DNA of 21,394 nt from a virus, in the IMG/VR virus record IMGVR_UViG_3300010233_000167, positions 1,623 through 23,016 of that record; one strand, 5' to 3'. The position numbers and the translations under genes were made by a program. Positions 2,136 through 20,418 of this stretch are shown here, one piece after another; position 1 is the first letter of the stretch, and every line of letters starts with the position of its first letter. A model generated the notes under the pieces. That model saw nothing but the letters and a program-made list of their open reading frames with translations. It was not told the origin of the DNA and searched no databases.

Positions 2136-2640
2136 TTTTCATTCCAAGCGGTGTAAGGGTTGAAAGACAAAGAAGATTCTCTTGTTTGCGGCGATTAGCA
2201 AGTCCAGTGCTGTACTTTCCGTCCGCGTATGTGTACTTTAATAAGTCATTACAAGCAAGAGTGAAGTTACCAGCGTTAAAGTCACGAGCCACGGACGACT
2301 TATCGTAAGTCCCCACACCCACATTGTAGGAAAAGGAAACGGCAGATGCTAACTGAACCGGGTGATAAAGTAGTTGCGGAGACACTTTTAAAACCCCACT
2401 TGCAGCTATCTGTGCGTCTTGTTGAGTCAAGGCAGCACATTGACTTGGACTGTACACCTTTCCCACAGTTACGTCAGGGCCAGTGTGTCCGGTGCAAACA
2501 GTCAGAACACCACCTATGTCTTTGTACGACTGAAGCCGAGTACCTTCAAGATCTTGGAGTGTTGGAACAACCGTTTGCATGACAATGGCCATGAGCGATG
2601 CACCCGCACCCGCACCGATGGCGATGTGTTTAGTGGACAC
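2113..2640 (-). CDS. SAR endolysin, R21/P22-type lysozyme (glycoside hydrolase family 24)
   Basis: A 175-residue muramidase that cleaves peptidoglycan at lysis. The catalytic triad spacing E-x8-D-x5-T is present as E32, D41 and T47, followed by the family motif TVCTGHTGPD; GVGTYDKSS and NRRKQE further on also fit the fold. Residues 6-28 form a Gly/Ala-rich weakly hydrophobic segment (IAIGAGAGASLMAIV) directly before the catalytic domain. This is typical of signal-anchor-release endolysins such as phage 21 R, which are exported by Sec and released when the membrane is depolarised. There is no Cys in the SAR segment. The start is GTG at 2640-2638; the downstream ATG (residue 17) would remove most of the SAR segment. 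A duplicated leader with a short upstream ORF precedes this gene. Confidence 0.93.
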   Translation of the reverse strand: MSTKHIAIGAGAGASLMAIVMQTVVPTLQDLEGTRLQSYKDIGGVLTVCTGHTGPDVTVGKVYSPSQCAALTQQDAQIAASGVLKVSPQLLYHPVQLASAVSFSYNVGVGTYDKSSVARDFNAGNFTLACNDLLKYTYADGKYSTGLANRRKQENLLCLSTLTPLGMKNVATANS

Positions 2641-2680
2641 TTGTCACCCAGAGGGCTAAGGTCGCTCCGCGATGACTCAT
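2630..2680 (-). CDS. Leader ORF A: 16-codon upstream ORF before the endolysin
   Basis: ATG 2680-2678 overlaps the holin stop as ATGA and has the best Shine-Dalgarno in the region, GGGAGGT ending 8 bases upstream. It encodes MSHRGATLALWVTSVH and stops at TAA 2632-2630, six bases past the endolysin GTG codon. Ribosomes translating it would pass through the hairpin that covers the endolysin ribosome site and stop beside the endolysin start. A second upstream ORF before the collagen-like gene (18167-18214) shares HRGxTLA. Whether the peptide itself has a role is unknown. The strong ribosome site is the main argument that it is translated. Confidence 0.55.
   Translation of the reverse strand: MSHRGATLALWVTSVH
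2645..2674 (-). repeat. Duplicated translational leader element, copy A
   Basis: These 30 bases match 18181-18211 with 28 identities and one 1-base indel. On the minus strand the element begins CATCGCGGAGCGACC and ends CTGGGTG, four bases before the endolysin GTG. GCCC (2656-2653) can pair with GGGT (2649-2646) over a 3-base loop, hiding the only Shine-Dalgarno-like sequence of the endolysin gene. The second copy has the same distance to its start codon, which argues for a regulatory role rather than chance. Confidence 0.75.
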
Positions 2681-2910
2681 AGGTGATTACCTCCCTTGAA
2701 CATGTTCCAAACGGTAATTACTACGCCTATAATCCCCGAACCAATGATAAGACCAACAAGACCAATTGCTCCCATACCCTTGTGTTTAAGTTCAAGGAGT
2801 TCGTCTAGCTTTGTCTTGATGTCATTAAGTAGAATTCGGTCGTCCTCGCGTTGACTTTCAAGAGTAGCGATTCGTTCGAGAAGTGTTAGATGATCGTGTA
2901 AAGGGGCCAT
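2677..2910 (-). CDS. Putative holin, coiled coil plus single C-terminal transmembrane helix (XhlA-like architecture)
   Basis: A 77-residue protein from ATG 2910-2908, with AGGAG about 15 bases upstream; a TTG at 2937 would add 9 residues but has no ribosome site. Residues about 5-43 form a charged heptad-like helix (LLERIATLES, LNDIKTKLDELLELK). Residues about 47-70 form one glycine-rich membrane helix (GAIGLVGLIIGSGIIGVVIT), and the tail is short and basic. Its position directly before the endolysin and spanins, its size and its topology make it the best holin candidate; this layout is seen in XhlA-type and other single-span holins. A SAR endolysin needs only depolarisation, so a small pinholin-like protein would suffice. 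The TGA stop overlaps the start of leader ORF A. Confidence 0.72.
   Translation of the reverse strand: MAPLHDHLTLLERIATLESQREDDRILLNDIKTKLDELLELKHKGMGAIGLVGLIIGSGIIGVVITVWNMFKGGNHL
2689..2695 (-). promoter_or_regulatory. Strong ribosome binding site for leader ORF A
   Basis: The minus strand reads GGGAGGT eight bases before ATG 2680-2678. It is much stronger than anything directly in front of the endolysin GTG, which suggests ribosomes reach the endolysin by way of the short leader ORF. Confidence 0.7.
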
Positions 2911-13830: not shown

Positions 13831-14916
13831 TTAAATTGCCTTTTTCAAGTCTAAACGGTAGAGATTGCCAACAGGCTCAGCACCGATACGCTCATAGATC
13901 ACACCAAGTCGATCACCATCACCCCGTGTACCTGTTTGCATAAACACTTCGTCCACACCGCCAAGTTGAAGAGACGCATTGGCCGCTCGTTGCAGTTTAA
14001 GACCAAGACCAGGGAATGTTGGGTCAGCATAGAACGTTGAGTGAGTAGCAGAGGTAATGGCTGTATCAACAAGGGACGGGGCGATAAGGGTCATAAGATA
14101 ACCAAACATACGACCATTAGACCGAGCGACCATGACTTGAAGTAAACCATTATCATCAAGATACTTCATCAATCCGAGGTTCTTTCGTTTCCATTGATCA
14201 ATCGGTTCACCGACCTCAGTGCAATGTTGTTCGAACAGTTGTTGGCCATCCCGCACAAAGACATCGAAGGATTCTCGTTGGATTGTAACCCCGTCAGGAG
14301 GAATGACTTTATTACGTTTGAGAGCTAGTTGTGTCTTAACTTTATTTGTTGCCTGTTGAGCAAGTTTAACGAGAGATTCTTTGTACGCAGTTGCATATCG
14401 GACCATAGCAAAGAAATCGATTTGAATGTTCTTGTCTTTTAAGTTGTTGTAATGCTCCTCATCAAACGGTTGGTTTAGGCAAAACTCAAAGACTTGTTTG
14501 CACGTCTCTTTTCTGTTTAAGTCGTCAAAGGTGACTGTGAGTACGTTCGGAAGTCGCTTAGTCAGTTGGCCGAGCTTGTGATCAAGATACGTCATACCTC
14601 TTGTGAGCGTTACCTCATCAAAAACTCCAGGACAAAGGGTCATCAAAGACTTAACAACCTCATTGACCGGACGACGAACACAAACCACTTTACAATCAGG
14701 TACGAGTACAGGGATTAATCTCCACCAAGGGGCCGCAGCAGTTTCAACAGTACCGACTTGTGGTTGGGTGAACCAAGTCTTGATGTCCTTTAAGGTCTTC
14801 ATTCGTTGAAGTTCTTCGTGACCACAAATCCAGCCGTTGTACGTAAGAAACTTGCTGAGCCAGGCAGTACGTGATCTTGGAAGACCGAGGATTAGAAATG
14901 GACAAGAATTCGTCAT
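13831..14916 (-). CDS. Sulfotransferase-like / GNAT acetyltransferase-like two-domain protein
   Basis: A 361-residue protein. Residues 7-23 (FLILGLPRSRTAWLSKF) form a P-loop-like 5'-phosphosulfate-binding motif. Residues 77-91 (VVCVRRPVNEVVKSL) match the 3'-phosphate-binding Arg...Ser motif of PAPS sulfotransferases. After a helical middle, residues about 240-358 look like a GNAT fold: QVMVARSNGRMFGYLM (beta strands), FYADPTFPGLGLKLQRAANA (acetyl-CoA loop region, degenerate relative to the usual Q/R-x-x-G-x-G/A), and YERIGAEPVGNLYRLDL at the end. It lies between small virion-type proteins and the ejection genes, in the slot of P22 gp14. The target is unknown: a virion protein, host envelope molecule or small molecule are all possible. 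The start overlaps the preceding stop as ATGA. Confidence 0.72.
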   Translation of the reverse strand: MTNSCPFLILGLPRSRTAWLSKFLTYNGWICGHEELQRMKTLKDIKTWFTQPQVGTVETAAAPWWRLIPVLVPDCKVVCVRRPVNEVVKSLMTLCPGVFDEVTLTRGMTYLDHKLGQLTKRLPNVLTVTFDDLNRKETCKQVFEFCLNQPFDEEHYNNLKDKNIQIDFFAMVRYATAYKESLVKLAQQATNKVKTQLALKRNKVIPPDGVTIQRESFDVFVRDGQQLFEQHCTEVGEPIDQWKRKNLGLMKYLDDNGLLQVMVARSNGRMFGYLMTLIAPSLVDTAITSATHSTFYADPTFPGLGLKLQRAANASLQLGGVDEVFMQTGTRGDGDRLGVIYERIGAEPVGNLYRLDLKKAI

Positions 14917-15693: not shown

Positions 15694-17658
15694 TTAGTTT
15701 AATACAATTTGTGGATCAATATAGAAGGTGGAGCTTGGAAGAGCGGCTTTTAGATAGGTGTATAAGTAACCGACGAGCTGTGGTGTAGGACTTGTGAGTG
15801 GCACAGTCATTTTAAATCGCCACCCCGCCTGCCATTTAGCCCCGTTATCTGTTACTGATCCACCATCCACAGCACTTGCAAAAGCAGCTGGAGGACTACC
15901 ATTGGTGCTTGTACCCGATTGAGTGCATATAAATACTCGACCGTAACCATCGACACTTGTTCCTGAGATGATAGCTCCAACAGTATAGGCGTGGTTACTT
16001 ATCCAGGCCGATGCTGCGCTATCCCATGCACTTGTATCTGCGGTCCAATTTGAACTTGCTGCTAAAATGTTAGATCGTGTTCCAGAACCTATTGAACCCA
16101 ATGGGCTTGAGGTTGATCCAAAATATTCTGTGTCATGCCAAATTTGTATATTGGTTGGCAACGCCGCACCAAACCATATTCCATAAACATTAACATTTAC
16201 AGTTGCACCTGTTTTAGAATTATATAGCCATGACCCAGGACAGGTAAATGGTACAGTCCAACCGACATTTGCGGTAGTTGTAATTTGCCAACTTATCGGT
16301 GTTGTGCCAGCTACAGCACCACCATTCCTGACAACTGTAGTGCTAGGAACATGCGAGCCATTCCAAGTGTAAGATCGCTGGTCGTAAGTTACGCCAGAAC
16401 TTCCAGAAGATATAAATTTGTATGTAGAAGCTAAACTTGTCGTACTGCCAAAATATGTAAGTGCTGAATTAAATTTACAATCAACAAATTGAGCGTTCCA
16501 ATTATTATTGCCAGGATTTAAAAGTGTGCCGGTTATAGCACTAAAATCCACACCTTCAAATAAGCCAACTCCACCATAAGTTGCATTAAAAGCAAATAAC
16601 GTTGTTGGAATTGTTGCACCTTGAATAGCAGATACTGTATTTCGCCAAATGGTTTTTCCGGCTGCTAACAGAATACCATCCGCCGTAGCTCCAAATTGCA
16701 TAGTTGTATTGTTTAGTTCAATATAAGATGAAACATTGCCTAAAGTAATAGCATTTCCAACTCCTGTTGTTCCAGCTTTTACTAAAGCACACGAATCTAA
16801 ACGAACTATATTATCGCCAGCATTATTAATAGTTAGAACGACATTTGTTGCACCAGAACCAGCCGAAAGAGTTATACCATACATATACCAAGGCGCATTG
16901 AAAGCGCCTGTTACAGTTAGAGCATTTGCTCCTGTAGTCGTTATCGACGCTCCAGTTAATAAATTAGCAGATGTAGGTGGCAAATTTGCGGTATGATCTA
17001 CAGATATAAATTGTGACCACACTGGAACAGTTATGGTTTCAGCAGCAGCTTGAGTTTCAGCATGGTCATTACCAAGATAGCCAATAGAGTTAACTGCAAC
17101 CGTTCCACTGGGCATCCATGTTGAAGCCACCGCGCTTTGCAACCTAGCAAACGGAGCTTTCCAATATTGAAAACCACTGGCCAGCCCTAAGCTAGTCCAC
17201 TTTACCGTTGCACCATCACTTGTTACAACACCAGCAGTTGCACTAAATACTGGCGAAGAACCACTAATTGTACCGGCAGTTGTACAAATTTGCAATGACG
17301 CCGAAGTTGTATCATAAATAACTAAGCCAGTTGTTACGGCTGTTGAAGACGCATGTTGCTGCGTCCAAGTTAGAGCGTTTGTTAAATCACCATTAGTTGC
17401 CGGATTGCCAGTACATTCATACCAAGTTACGGTTCCGTCAGTTGTAGCACCATAACGAGTAATTGCCCAAGTTGGTTCGCCAACATTATTGGTTGTTCCA
17501 GCTACTCCGCAAACAAACACACGCTCGCTGCCAACAGCAGGCGTAGCAAGTTGTCGAACTAATTGTCCGCAGGTATAACCATGATTCTGTATCCAAGCAC
17601 TTACGGCTGTCCATTGAGTGCTGTCGGTGTACCAAACGGAAACATTGAGATTAGCCAT
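15694..17658 (-). CDS. Tail fibre with three carbohydrate-binding-like modules around a beta-helical centre
   Basis: A 654-residue protein. Residues about 16-84 contain AWIQNHGYTCGQLVRQ, ERVFVCGVAGTTNNVGEPTW and TTDGTVTWYECTG. This Trp-Tyr-Gly-Val ... Cys ... GT ... DGT-x-x-W module is common in phage fibres and resembles chitin/cellulose-binding modules. A shorter, diverged copy follows at about 97-158 (GLVIYDTTSASLQICTTAGT, SDGATVKWTSLG). A third lies near the C-terminus at about 545-611 (AWISNHAYTVGAIISG, GRVFICTQSGTS, TDNGAKWQAG). Between them, about 185-440, are Asn/Thr/Gly-rich short strands typical of a parallel beta-helix. It is probably a receptor-binding fibre. Its ATG overlaps the collagen-like gene's stop (TAATG), so translation is coupled. 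The central DNA is visibly AT-rich. Confidence 0.78.
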   Translation of the reverse strand: MANLNVSVWYTDSTQWTAVSAWIQNHGYTCGQLVRQLATPAVGSERVFVCGVAGTTNNVGEPTWAITRYGATTDGTVTWYECTGNPATNGDLTNALTWTQQHASSTAVTTGLVIYDTTSASLQICTTAGTISGSSPVFSATAGVVTSDGATVKWTSLGLASGFQYWKAPFARLQSAVASTWMPSGTVAVNSIGYLGNDHAETQAAAETITVPVWSQFISVDHTANLPPTSANLLTGASITTTGANALTVTGAFNAPWYMYGITLSAGSGATNVVLTINNAGDNIVRLDSCALVKAGTTGVGNAITLGNVSSYIELNNTTMQFGATADGILLAAGKTIWRNTVSAIQGATIPTTLFAFNATYGGVGLFEGVDFSAITGTLLNPGNNNWNAQFVDCKFNSALTYFGSTTSLASTYKFISSGSSGVTYDQRSYTWNGSHVPSTTVVRNGGAVAGTTPISWQITTTANVGWTVPFTCPGSWLYNSKTGATVNVNVYGIWFGAALPTNIQIWHDTEYFGSTSSPLGSIGSGTRSNILAASSNWTADTSAWDSAASAWISNHAYTVGAIISGTSVDGYGRVFICTQSGTSTNGSPPAAFASAVDGGSVTDNGAKWQAGWRFKMTVPLTSPTPQLVGYLYTYLKAALPSSTFYIDPQIVLN

Positions 17659-18176
17659 TAAAGAAAGAACACTGCAAAACCAGCAGACCCTTGTGGGCCT
17701 TGGATTGGAAATGTATCTTGGCCGTCCTCGCCGTCTTGTCCAGGAAGACCTAATCCGGCTAGACCCTGTGGTCCCATCGCGCCAGTAGCACCCGTCGGAC
17801 CTGTTGGACCAACTGAGCCCGTTGATCCCGGTGGACCTGGAATTGTCAGACCATCTTCCCCGTCTTCACCGTCCCACCCTGTCGGACCAATAAATCCTTG
17901 AATACCGGGAGAACCTTTTGGGCCAATTACTTGGGTAGTATTAAAAGATAACGGTAGGCTTAGCTGATCTTGTTGTGTCTGCTGGAGGTCCGGCTTAGAA
18001 TCAGATAAGGCCTCAAGGATAGCGAGATCATCGGAACTAACACCATTCGCCCCACCTGTTCTATTCCACAGTTGAGCAAGTAAGTAGAACCATTCTGATG
18101 TGATATTCCCTTGTTCATCAACAAGTTTTGATGATACTTTCGGAAAACCCTGTTGAGTTGTACTACCTACTGGCAT
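17658..18176 (-). CDS. Collagen-like fibre protein in the tail-needle (gp26) position
   Basis: A 172-residue protein. The N-terminal 80 residues carry a phage-tail motif (SEWFYLLAQLWNRTGGANG) and a helical Gln-rich segment. Residues 85-166 are Gly-X-Y repeats (for example GPKGSPGIQGFIGPTG and GPTGPTGATGAMGPQG) with three short breaks, ending in a hydrophobic FAVFFL tail. Collagen repeats form a trimeric rod. In P22-type genomes the gene after gp10 encodes the trimeric gp26 needle that plugs the tail, so this may be the functional counterpart; a side fibre is the alternative. Asp-Gly-Glu triplets make several repeats strongly acidic. ATG 18176-18174 is preceded by the duplicated leader element and its short upstream ORF. 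Confidence 0.85.
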   Translation of the reverse strand: MPVGSTTQQGFPKVSSKLVDEQGNITSEWFYLLAQLWNRTGGANGVSSDDLAILEALSDSKPDLQQTQQDQLSLPLSFNTTQVIGPKGSPGIQGFIGPTGWDGEDGEDGLTIPGPPGSTGSVGPTGPTGATGAMGPQGLAGLGLPGQDGEDGQDTFPIQGPQGSAGFAVFFL

Positions 18177-18214
18177 TTTGCACCCAGACGGGCTAAAGTC
18201 ACTCCGCGATGCAT
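18167..18214 (-). CDS. Leader ORF B: 15-codon upstream ORF before the collagen-like gene
   Basis: ATG 18214-18212 begins one base after the stop of the gp10-like gene. It encodes MHRGVTLARLGAKCQ and ends at TAG 18169-18167, four bases past the ATG codon of the collagen-like gene. A weak GCGGA lies 8 bases upstream; reinitiation after gp10 is also possible. The peptide shares HRGxTLA with leader ORF A at 2630-2680, and in both cases the stop falls just beyond the downstream start codon. Translation is plausible but unproven. Confidence 0.5.
   Translation of the reverse strand: MHRGVTLARLGAKCQ
18181..18211 (-). repeat. Duplicated translational leader element, copy B
   Basis: These 31 bases match 2645-2674 with 28 of 30 aligned identities plus one extra base (18189). 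GCCC (18193-18190) can pair with GGGT (18185-18182) around a 4-base loop. GGGTG then lies four bases before the collagen-like ATG, exactly the spacing of copy A. Both copies fill nearly all the gap between two genes. Confidence 0.75.
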
Positions 18215-18215
18215 C

Positions 18216-19703
18216 TTATGTTTCCGCCGGTTCTGCCCACACATCACCACCATTAAGCGCGGTGAAAGCGGGTACTGACCAAAAGACTTCAAATACTCTA
18301 TTACGAGCTTGACCTAGTTGTGGGAACATAATTGACCGATTGAATTCGCCGGTTGATCCGAGACCATACACACGAGGATTTCCCCAGGTCTTACCACGAT
18401 TATCGCTGTACCGAAGAGAGATTTGTGGTTCATTTGATGTAAGTGTGTTTTGAATTTCACCTACATCCATGTCCAGGACAAGACGACTAAACTCAACTCT
18501 ACGGTTATTGACTTGAATACCGGGCCAACCGCGTCGACGAACAATAGGTTGACCATTATCTGTATAGTTATTTAGGTTCCACTGATAAAGTGCCCCAGTT
18601 TCCCAATCGCCCACTACAATAGTTCCATAAGCAGGCGCACAAGTGTTTGGACGAATACGGTTTTCCTGACCACTATTGTCTGTCCAAGTTCGTTCATGCC
18701 AGAGATTTTCAGCGATGTCGAATACCCATGTTGCATTGGCAGTCGGGAAAATTAATACGTAAAACGTATGACCAAGTTGCTGATAGGTAAATCCGATGGC
18801 ATCGCTGATTGTAGCGTACGAAGAGATTTTCTGTTCAATGGCGTGCGTAGAGATACGATGGGCCGTGTATTGATTACCGTTAAGAACAATAGTTTGCCCT
18901 TGACGGTCTTTACTTAACCAGTAAATTGAGAGGTCTTGACGACAAATCGAATAGGGGGCAACACAACCATGTTCGATAAATACACCGGGAAGTTCAGCAA
19001 AAGAAAACTGGGGGTTGCCCGCATCGTACCACACTTCAGTAGTTTCAGTACCAATTAACCACGCTTCTCGGTGCATGGCTATTACACCAACGACATTATC
19101 TGGATTGCCGACTTTAGCCGCAATGTCTAATGGATCAAAAGCCGCAGCAGTAGTGTCGGGGGAAACTGTACCAGTTAGATTTTCAAAAGTTACATTGGAA
19201 AGAGAGATGTACCATTGATTGGTATTGGGTCGATTTAACAGAAAGAACGTGTCAATACAATCGACCCTATTTCCTCCGTAAAATGCCCCATCTTGTCCGG
19301 AGATTGTAGCGAAAGAATTATCCGACATCTTGATGCACCAACCGTTTGCTGATCCATCCACAATGAGGATTGCTAGGCTGTTATCCGACATCGATACGAT
19401 ACCACTATCGGAGTCAATAGTACCGAGAAGAGTACGAGACCAACCTGAAGTAGTTGCGTAGACTTTATTGCCGATTACTTCGTAAAAGTTACCATTAGTT
19501 GCTGTGTACGCACATCTATGTTCAAAACCTGTTCCGGCAATTAGTTGTGTAAGACCGGGAGTCAGTTGATGTGTAACGGGGAAGGGGCTGTCTTCAGGGT
19601 TCTTTTCTGGGTATAGGTTAACGCAACGTTGGGCGGAAGCAATGACTGACCTAGCCTCATACATACCTCCAACTAGCGGAAGTTTTACAGGACTAGTAAC
19701 CAT
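18216..19703 (-). CDS. Tail hub / packaged DNA stabilisation protein, P22 gp10-like
   Basis: A 495-residue protein from ATG 19703-19701, which overlaps the gp4-like gene by 11 bases; a TTG at 19736 would add 11 unrelated residues. The N-terminal signature EARSVIASAQRCVNLYPEKN, followed by PVTHQLTPGLTQLIAG, is characteristic of the P22 gp10 family. Later segments such as GYIDSD-like beta repeats and VWFDIAENLWHERTW-type text (here WVFDIAENLWHERTW) fit the beta-propeller-like hub. It joins the gp4-like adaptor at the base of the portal and closes the tail after packaging. P22 gp10 is of similar size (472 residues). Confidence 0.9.
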   Translation of the reverse strand: MVTSPVKLPLVGGMYEARSVIASAQRCVNLYPEKNPEDSPFPVTHQLTPGLTQLIAGTGFEHRCAYTATNGNFYEVIGNKVYATTSGWSRTLLGTIDSDSGIVSMSDNSLAILIVDGSANGWCIKMSDNSFATISGQDGAFYGGNRVDCIDTFFLLNRPNTNQWYISLSNVTFENLTGTVSPDTTAAAFDPLDIAAKVGNPDNVVGVIAMHREAWLIGTETTEVWYDAGNPQFSFAELPGVFIEHGCVAPYSICRQDLSIYWLSKDRQGQTIVLNGNQYTAHRISTHAIEQKISSYATISDAIGFTYQQLGHTFYVLIFPTANATWVFDIAENLWHERTWTDNSGQENRIRPNTCAPAYGTIVVGDWETGALYQWNLNNYTDNGQPIVRRRGWPGIQVNNRRVEFSRLVLDMDVGEIQNTLTSNEPQISLRYSDNRGKTWGNPRVYGLGSTGEFNRSIMFPQLGQARNRVFEVFWSVPAFTALNGGDVWAEPAET

Positions 19704-20418
19704 CGCTGTACACGTTGTACGAACGCTGAGCACCAATTACTGCTGGTGGCATTTTGGACGTTGGAGTTTGAACGTTAGCCCCACGAATAACATTGAGAGC
19801 ATCTTTAGCAAGAGCAATCATCGCCGGATCGGCTGGCATACGGTAGGCGACCCTAAGACGAACCATAAGATTGTAAAGAAGAGCCGCTTCGTACTCAGGG
19901 GGAAGATTGATAACCTGAGTAAGAGATGTGAACTGAGTAATCTGGTGTTTAACCAAAATGTGTAACTCATACAAATTGGCATTAGGCACAGGCCATGCGT
20001 AAATTGTACCGTTGGGCCAGTTGCTGTCGTAAAAGATAATGCTGGGCCAAGTACCCATTGTCTTTAGACGAATACGATTGTAATCTTCATGTGAGGGCAA
20101 CAGTTGAAGGGGATAGTCGATTTGCTCAACACCCGCTTGGGCTCGTTGCCTCAGGAAGTTACCATCTTCAAGGCGATCTGGGCGAGGTGTGTCGAAGTCG
20201 CCCCCAGGACCAATAGAATAGGTTTCAGCCCCCGTGGTCACAACGGAAACGTCAGTCAGATTGTAAATCATCCAACGCTTACGGTTCCACTGAGCAGTGA
20301 TATAATTCAACCGTTTAAATGCATTGTTAATGTCTTCAGCTTGGGCGATCTGACCTTGACCAAGGATACCCGAGTCAATCAATGCTAGAACAAGAAGATC
20401 ATTAACGGTTGATGTCAA
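19693..20418 (-). CDS. Tail accessory factor / head completion protein, P22 gp4-like
   Basis: A 241-residue protein. The N-terminal helix pair (VNDLLVLALIDSGILGQGQI, then EDINNAFKRLNYITAQWNRK) and the segment around TYSIGPGGDFDTPRPDRLED match the gp4 family of ring-forming adaptors. These bind below the portal and start tail assembly. It is longer than P22 gp4 (166 residues), with the extra length in the C-terminal half. The start is TTG 20418-20416, six bases after the upstream stop; no in-frame ATG lies close to the conserved N-terminus. It overlaps the gp10-like gene, in line with coupled synthesis of the two hub proteins. Confidence 0.88.
   Translation of the reverse strand: MTSTVNDLLVLALIDSGILGQGQIAQAEDINNAFKRLNYITAQWNRKRWMIYNLTDVSVVTTGAETYSIGPGGDFDTPRPDRLEDGNFLRQRAQAGVEQIDYPLQLLPSHEDYNRIRLKTMGTWPSIIFYDSNWPNGTIYAWPVPNANLYELHILVKHQITQFTSLTQVINLPPEYEAALLYNLMVRLRVAYRMPADPAMIALAKDALNVIRGANVQTPTSKMPPAVIGAQRSYNVYSDGY

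Follow-up and report, generated by a model that had tools for sequence, protein, structure and literature searches.

A short repeat carrying a translation start at two gene junctions of a P22-like phage

Background

Phages pack their genes densely, with stops and starts that overlap, and how a new control sequence could enter such an arrangement without breaking expression is not self-evident. This question is raised by a stretch of 21,394 nucleotides from an environmental virus (IMG/VR record IMGVR_UViG_3300010233_000167, positions 1,623 to 23,016), which is referred to here as the window. In front of the endolysin gene, and again in front of a tail gene, the window holds a short sequence that ends a few bases before the start codon and is crossed by a small open reading frame. 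What is this element, how might it have come to lie at these two junctions, and what could it do there?

Results

Genes at the two sites

The portal protein of this phage is P22-like (Pfam), and its 30.9-kb record is catalogued as a viral contig, possibly a fragment. Copy A of the element lies on the minus strand between a holin-like gene (2677–2937, minus; start possibly the ATG at 2910) and the gene for a SAR-type endolysin of the phage lysozyme family (2113–2640, minus; PHROG endolysin, E=2e-40; Pfam Phage_lysozyme). The holin-like gene encodes a small membrane protein of 86 amino acids that found no match in a PHROG search; its homologues are located directly upstream of the endolysin in six related contigs, L023–L028. 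Copy B, also on the minus strand, separates the gene for head closure protein Hc3 (18216–19736, minus; PHROG 578, E=2.5e-103) from that for a collagen-like tail protein (17658–18176, minus; PHROG tail families). The phage is a mosaic, having its Hc3 region in common with contigs of the L003/L017 type and its lysis region with L023–L028.

Several other genes deserve mention. A probable spanin pair lies 3' of the endolysin gene and consists of a membrane-anchored protein of 197 amino acids (1542–2135, minus) and, nested in a different frame, a 65-aa lipoprotein with an LVSC lipobox (1628–1825, minus); neither had a match in the Pfam search. An Endonuclease VII-like ORF with a TTG start (869–1285, plus) directly follows the ribonucleotide reductase gene, on the strand opposite to the late operon. 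The structural gene cluster includes a 361-aa protein (13831–14916, minus) whose N terminus is weakly sulfotransferase-like, below the Pfam cut-off, and whose C terminus looks acetyltransferase-like by eye. Just past the window end, in the same record, the P22-like portal gene (L031:2312–5449, minus) contains an in-frame, intein-like insert of the LAGLIDADG kind (Pfam LAGLIDADG_3 and Hom_end, residues 546–596), the first residue of which is apparently alanine (NYN-ALLDLKTPVPTPTGW ... VPTHN-SAAIEYG). The Hc3 homologue of L017 (record G006, 24058–25770) was matched as two pieces, one with a TAA stop, a possible interruption or sequencing error.

The repeat and its placement

On the minus strand, the core of the element reads CATCGCGGAGCGACCTTAGCCC-TCTGGGTG in copy A (2674–2645) and CATCGCGGAGTGACTTTAGCCCGTCTGGGTG in copy B (18211–18181). 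The two cores, of 30 and 31 nt, align over 31 columns with 28 identities, two transitions and one indel, confirming the repeat that had been reported in the initial annotation. No repeat in the window is stronger, and it alone among the self-repeats has E<0.1 (E=7e-4); its score of 43 was not reached in any of 200 dinucleotide shuffles, whose best scores ranged from 26 to 39. Aligned from stop to start, the two copies agree in 37 of 49 columns. As had also been noted, both lie between two genes and end in GGGTG (2645–2649 and 18181–18185, minus), four bases from the main start (GTG at 2640, ATG at 18176), so that the geometry of Shine-Dalgarno (SD) site and start codon is identical in the two.

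Both copies occupy intergenic gaps of 36–39 nt; nearly all of the remaining junctions in the window overlap or have gaps below 20 nt, the single other exception being 153 nt. Because the copies lie in such unusually wide gaps and each stops four bases short of a start codon, chance is a very unlikely cause of their placement. An element that is short, directional and intergenic could also act at the DNA level, as phage polymerase promoters do, whether by being a promoter, an operator or a processing site. We consider this most improbable: the start codon follows at a fixed 4 nt and the repeat itself contains the SD site, both of which point to translation; searches for sigma-70-like and terminator-like sites gave none overlapping a copy; and the element is missing from the other genes of the operon.

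The same junctions in related phages

The two junctions were compared with six endolysin contexts (L023–L028) and about 20 Hc3/tail contexts. The endolysins of L023–L028 are 52–72% identical to that of the window (best segment). In all six, the upstream protein ends in ...HL and the endolysin start lies inside or against its stop, in overlaps of the TAATG, TGATG or TTGA kind such as CACCTATAATGG, CATCTCTAATGG and CACCTTTGAAC. In nearly all of the Hc3 relatives, the next gene likewise begins a few bases at most from the end of Hc3 (TAATG, ATGA, TAGAAAATG and others); L011 has a longer gap. The two closest Hc3 relatives, reached via a neighbouring 241-aa gene, also lack the element: Hc3 is 77% identical in L070, where the junction is TAATCTGAATG (5 nt), and 71% identical in L071, where it is ATGA.

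Since the same gene pairs overlap or nearly abut in these relatives, the window holds, on this comparison, about 37 extra bases at both junctions, which we read as insertions. The DNA of the relatives is too divergent to place the exact ends. In the simplest reading, the inserted piece runs from CATC through the present start codon and lies behind the old start (ATG AGT in copy A, ATG in copy B). As judged from the repeat and from its absence at the relatives' junctions, copy A would thus comprise 37 nt, CATCGCGG...GGGTGACAAGTG, including the endolysin GTG (2638–2674, minus), and copy B 38 nt, CATCGCGG...GGGTGCAAAATG, including the tail-gene ATG (18174–18211, minus). The copies are flanked by AGT or ATG triplets; as the 3' ends of the inserts disagree under a single model, no target-site duplication is claimed. 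Transfer of the genes together with their leader was rejected on gene order, because relatives have the same gene pairs without the insert.

Short ORFs across the insert

As the initial annotation stated, a short upstream ORF (uORF) crosses each copy and ends just beyond the main start. That of copy A (MSHRGATLALWVTSVH; 2680–2630, minus) has 16 codons, an ATG that overlaps the upstream TGA, and a stop 9–11 nt inside the endolysin gene; that of copy B (MHRGVTLARLGAKCQ; 18214–18167, minus) begins 1 nt behind the Hc3 stop, runs for 15 codons and ends with a stop 8–10 nt inside the tail gene. The uORFs overlap the main genes by 10 and 11 nt, and the ATGA arrangement is found solely at the upstream junction of copy A. 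Seven residues are common to both peptides, after which the one-base indel shifts the frame. The motif HRGxTLA, previously described as conserved, is indeed present in both, as a product of the repeated DNA; given the change of frame after seven residues, nothing points to selection on the peptide or to its having a role. A stop-free ORF of such length (some 13 codons) is expected by chance in about half of cases.

What makes the uORFs non-trivial is their span from the stop of the upstream gene to the new start, along which ribosomes terminating on that gene would be able to cross the insert. Their ATGs are probably the former main start codons: with an insert placed behind the old start, both uORFs begin at the upstream stop. 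The uORF of copy A has a strong SD site, GGGAGGT (2689–2695, minus), within the 3' end of the holin-like gene. Its predicted anti-SD duplex of -15.7 kcal/mol, as compared with -8.1 kcal/mol for the endolysin GGGTG paired to the 16S 3' end, bears out the strength ascribed to it earlier; the GGGTG of the tail gene reaches -6.1 kcal/mol. GGGAGGT probably once served the former endolysin start. Because the element also precedes a tail gene, in its second copy, the suggestion that it times or limits lysis finds no support; the simplest view of the uORF is an old start read into the insert, and not something evolved for lysis timing.

Predicted RNA folding

The hairpin GCCC/GGGT that was proposed to hide the SD site can be drawn, but its predicted pairing probability was about zero in all six contexts tested, and it was discarded as main fold. 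When folded in short contexts, the two copies are instead predicted to form an end-to-end stem, (GU or UG)CAUC with GGUG(AC or CA), that hides the SD site of the main gene. In copy A (2643–2676, minus), GUCAUC (2676–2671) pairs with GGUGAC (2648–2643), with predicted pair probabilities of 0.94–1.0 in a 55-nt context and 0.12–0.20 in longer ones; in copy B (18179–18213, minus), UGCAUC (18213–18208) pairs with GGUGCA (18184–18179). All six pairs are kept in both copies, the outer two being G-C and U-A in one and U-A and G-C in the other; in slid registers, 25–50% of cells pair, versus 100% in the proper one. This covariation rests on two sequences and was equalled in 130 of 500 shuffles. The folds were no more stable than those of shuffled sequences (z -0.6 to 0.4), other predicted folds compete with the end stem in contexts of 115–156 nt, and a search of the window against Rfam gave no match. 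Of 20 start regions compared across the window, three were control starts whose position was off by at least a few bases; in this set, the two regions with the element had the lowest folding energies, and the endolysin SD site was both the most occluded and the strongest. The end-to-end stem fits better than the GCCC/GGGT hairpin, on thin evidence from modelling.

Such a stem could also be a translational operator, in which a conserved loop of 22–23 nt binds a phage or host protein or a small RNA that co-regulates the endolysin and tail genes, with the uORF being incidental. The predicted unpaired loop reads GCGGAGYGACYUUAGCCC(G)UCUG in nearly invariant form, with more in it than an SD site requires, the stem pairs vary and the loop does not, and the SD site is located inside the stem. 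We nevertheless judge an operator unlikely: there are two sites alone and no candidate binder, and the likeness of the copies may mean no more than that they arose recently.

Searches for further copies

The core repeat is present in exactly two copies in the 30.9-kb record, and no third copy was found in that record, in 2.9 million viral contigs, in 84,980 GTDB genomes or among GenBank phages. The strict core pattern and its relaxed forms had no matches in IMG/VR; a looser pattern with fixed ends and a variable middle had 25, all unlike the element in middle and flanks and chance-like. The GTDB scan for the core gave three chance-like matches, blastn against GenBank phages gave E>=3 at best, and pattern and covariance-model searches of related contigs found none apart from one chance-like match with three mismatches. 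The expectation that related phages would have more copies before their genes was thus not borne out, the relatives being without the element, and this speaks against its being general. As far as these searches reach, the insert appears specific to this phage lineage; records very near the window may lie outside the searched sets.

The absence of copies elsewhere in the searched sets would suit a duplicated scrap with no regulatory role, of which recombination placed a copy at another tolerated site and which survives by supplying a usable ribosome-binding site. The peptide frame that is not kept beyond the indel and the folding that is no better than in shuffles fit this as well, but both copies are identically placed relative to stop and start and their paired flanks differ in a compensatory way, which leaves the scrap a somewhat doubtful explanation.

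Discussion

The insertions relative to relatives, the near-identity of the copies and the fixed SD-to-start spacing at their 3' ends are observed. The explanation that we favour, at roughly even chances of being right, is a duplicated translation-start cassette of 37–38 nt, inserted twice in this P22-like lineage at tight stop/start junctions, with the old start turned into a coupling uORF. The receiving junctions would have resembled those of the relatives, with upstream stop and downstream start overlapping or a few bases apart. The old start, an ATG overlapping or abutting the upstream stop, would now open the ORF of 15–16 codons, on which ribosomes ending the upstream gene could re-initiate. 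Translation of the uORF would open the stem between the 5' end of the element (CAUC) and the SD site (GGUG), and ribosomes stopping 8–11 nt beyond the new start would hand over to the main gene, so that coupling is kept or tuned after insertion. Rare mobility and recombination are candidate routes for the copying.

In favour of such a cassette are a repeat beyond chance, empty junctions in the relatives, a shared SD geometry, structured starts and compensatory stem pairs; against it are the two copies, the lack of a relative with the element, a fold no better than shuffles and an ORF of chance-level length. On modelling and by analogy, the uORF-coupling mechanism is plausible at both junctions. 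The coupling switch proposed in the initial annotation thus stands in its anatomy, in having tested precedents (iraD, PMC5574718; the coat and lysis genes of RNA phages, PMC12548453) and in the predicted hiding of the SD site, by a stem other than the hairpin then drawn. A bolder and rather improbable version is a very small, phage-borne mobile cassette, akin to the mycobacterial MIRU repeats described below, that invades coupled junctions, brings its own ribosome-binding site and start and turns the old start into a bridging mini-gene; more copies would then be expected in the unsampled part of the genome and in close kin. If the cassette reading is true, two insertions of the same piece, in each of which the old start is reused to open a bridging ORF, would illustrate concretely how a control sequence can enter a packed junction.

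Comparison with known systems

Translated short leader ORFs that open a hidden ribosome-binding site are known from E. coli iraD (PMC5574718), and an intergenic small ORF is reported to precede a Salmonella Mg2+ transporter gene (PMC8092293). As far as these accounts go, the likeness is a small ORF that ends where the main gene starts and opens a structure hiding the SD site. Here, the predicted probability of the main SD site being unpaired is low, and the overall fold is not exceptional. Those two are single-gene leaders under CsrA or other signals, whereas the phage element is a repeated insert at two junctions, with its coupling predicted. In the RNA phages MS2 and fr, the lysis gene is opened by ribosomes ending an upstream frame, via RNA unfolding or scanning (PMC12548453); the upstream frame there is the coat gene and here a 16-codon ORF of an insert in a DNA phage.

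The initial annotation knew of no named element of this kind, yet two named ones are similarly placed. By position, the nearest phage elements are the Start-Associated Sequences (SAS/ESAS) of cluster K mycobacteriophages, a 13-bp sequence, GGGATAGGAGCCC, present in 11–19 copies per genome (PMC3203893). They lie in one orientation a few bases before starts, consist of an SD site with extra conserved bases, have upstream inverted repeats in half of cases and precede non-structural genes with large upstream gaps (PMC3203893). Both phage copies, at 4 nt, fall within the SAS range of 3–7 bp before the start. The consensus GGGATAGGAGCCC, with up to two deviations, is in neither copy (the SD part, TCTGGGTG, deviates by eye at more than two positions in any register), and the copy number is two in a 30.9-kb record that is possibly a fragment. 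The phage element also differs from SAS in preceding late genes, in being crossed by a short ORF and in its sequence.

By analogy, the nearest known behaviour is that of the mycobacterial interspersed repetitive units (MIRU), short and apparently mobile repeats at start codons whose carried ORF couples to the downstream gene and so limits the impact of insertion (PMC12548453). Compared by description, the likeness lies in an insert at a stop/start junction with a bridging ORF, the coupling itself being predicted. The differences are that the phage insert has 37–38 nt and two copies in an environmental P22-like phage, that its mobility is putative, and that its downstream overlap is 10 and 11 nt, as against -4 nt (ATGA-type) in MIRU. 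If the likeness holds, a phage with two natural copies, and with relatives whose sites are empty, would be a system in which to test the MIRU idea. The element has some of the defining features of MIRU and of SAS and lacks others, and it is therefore filed under neither: it resembles both in working and belongs to neither.
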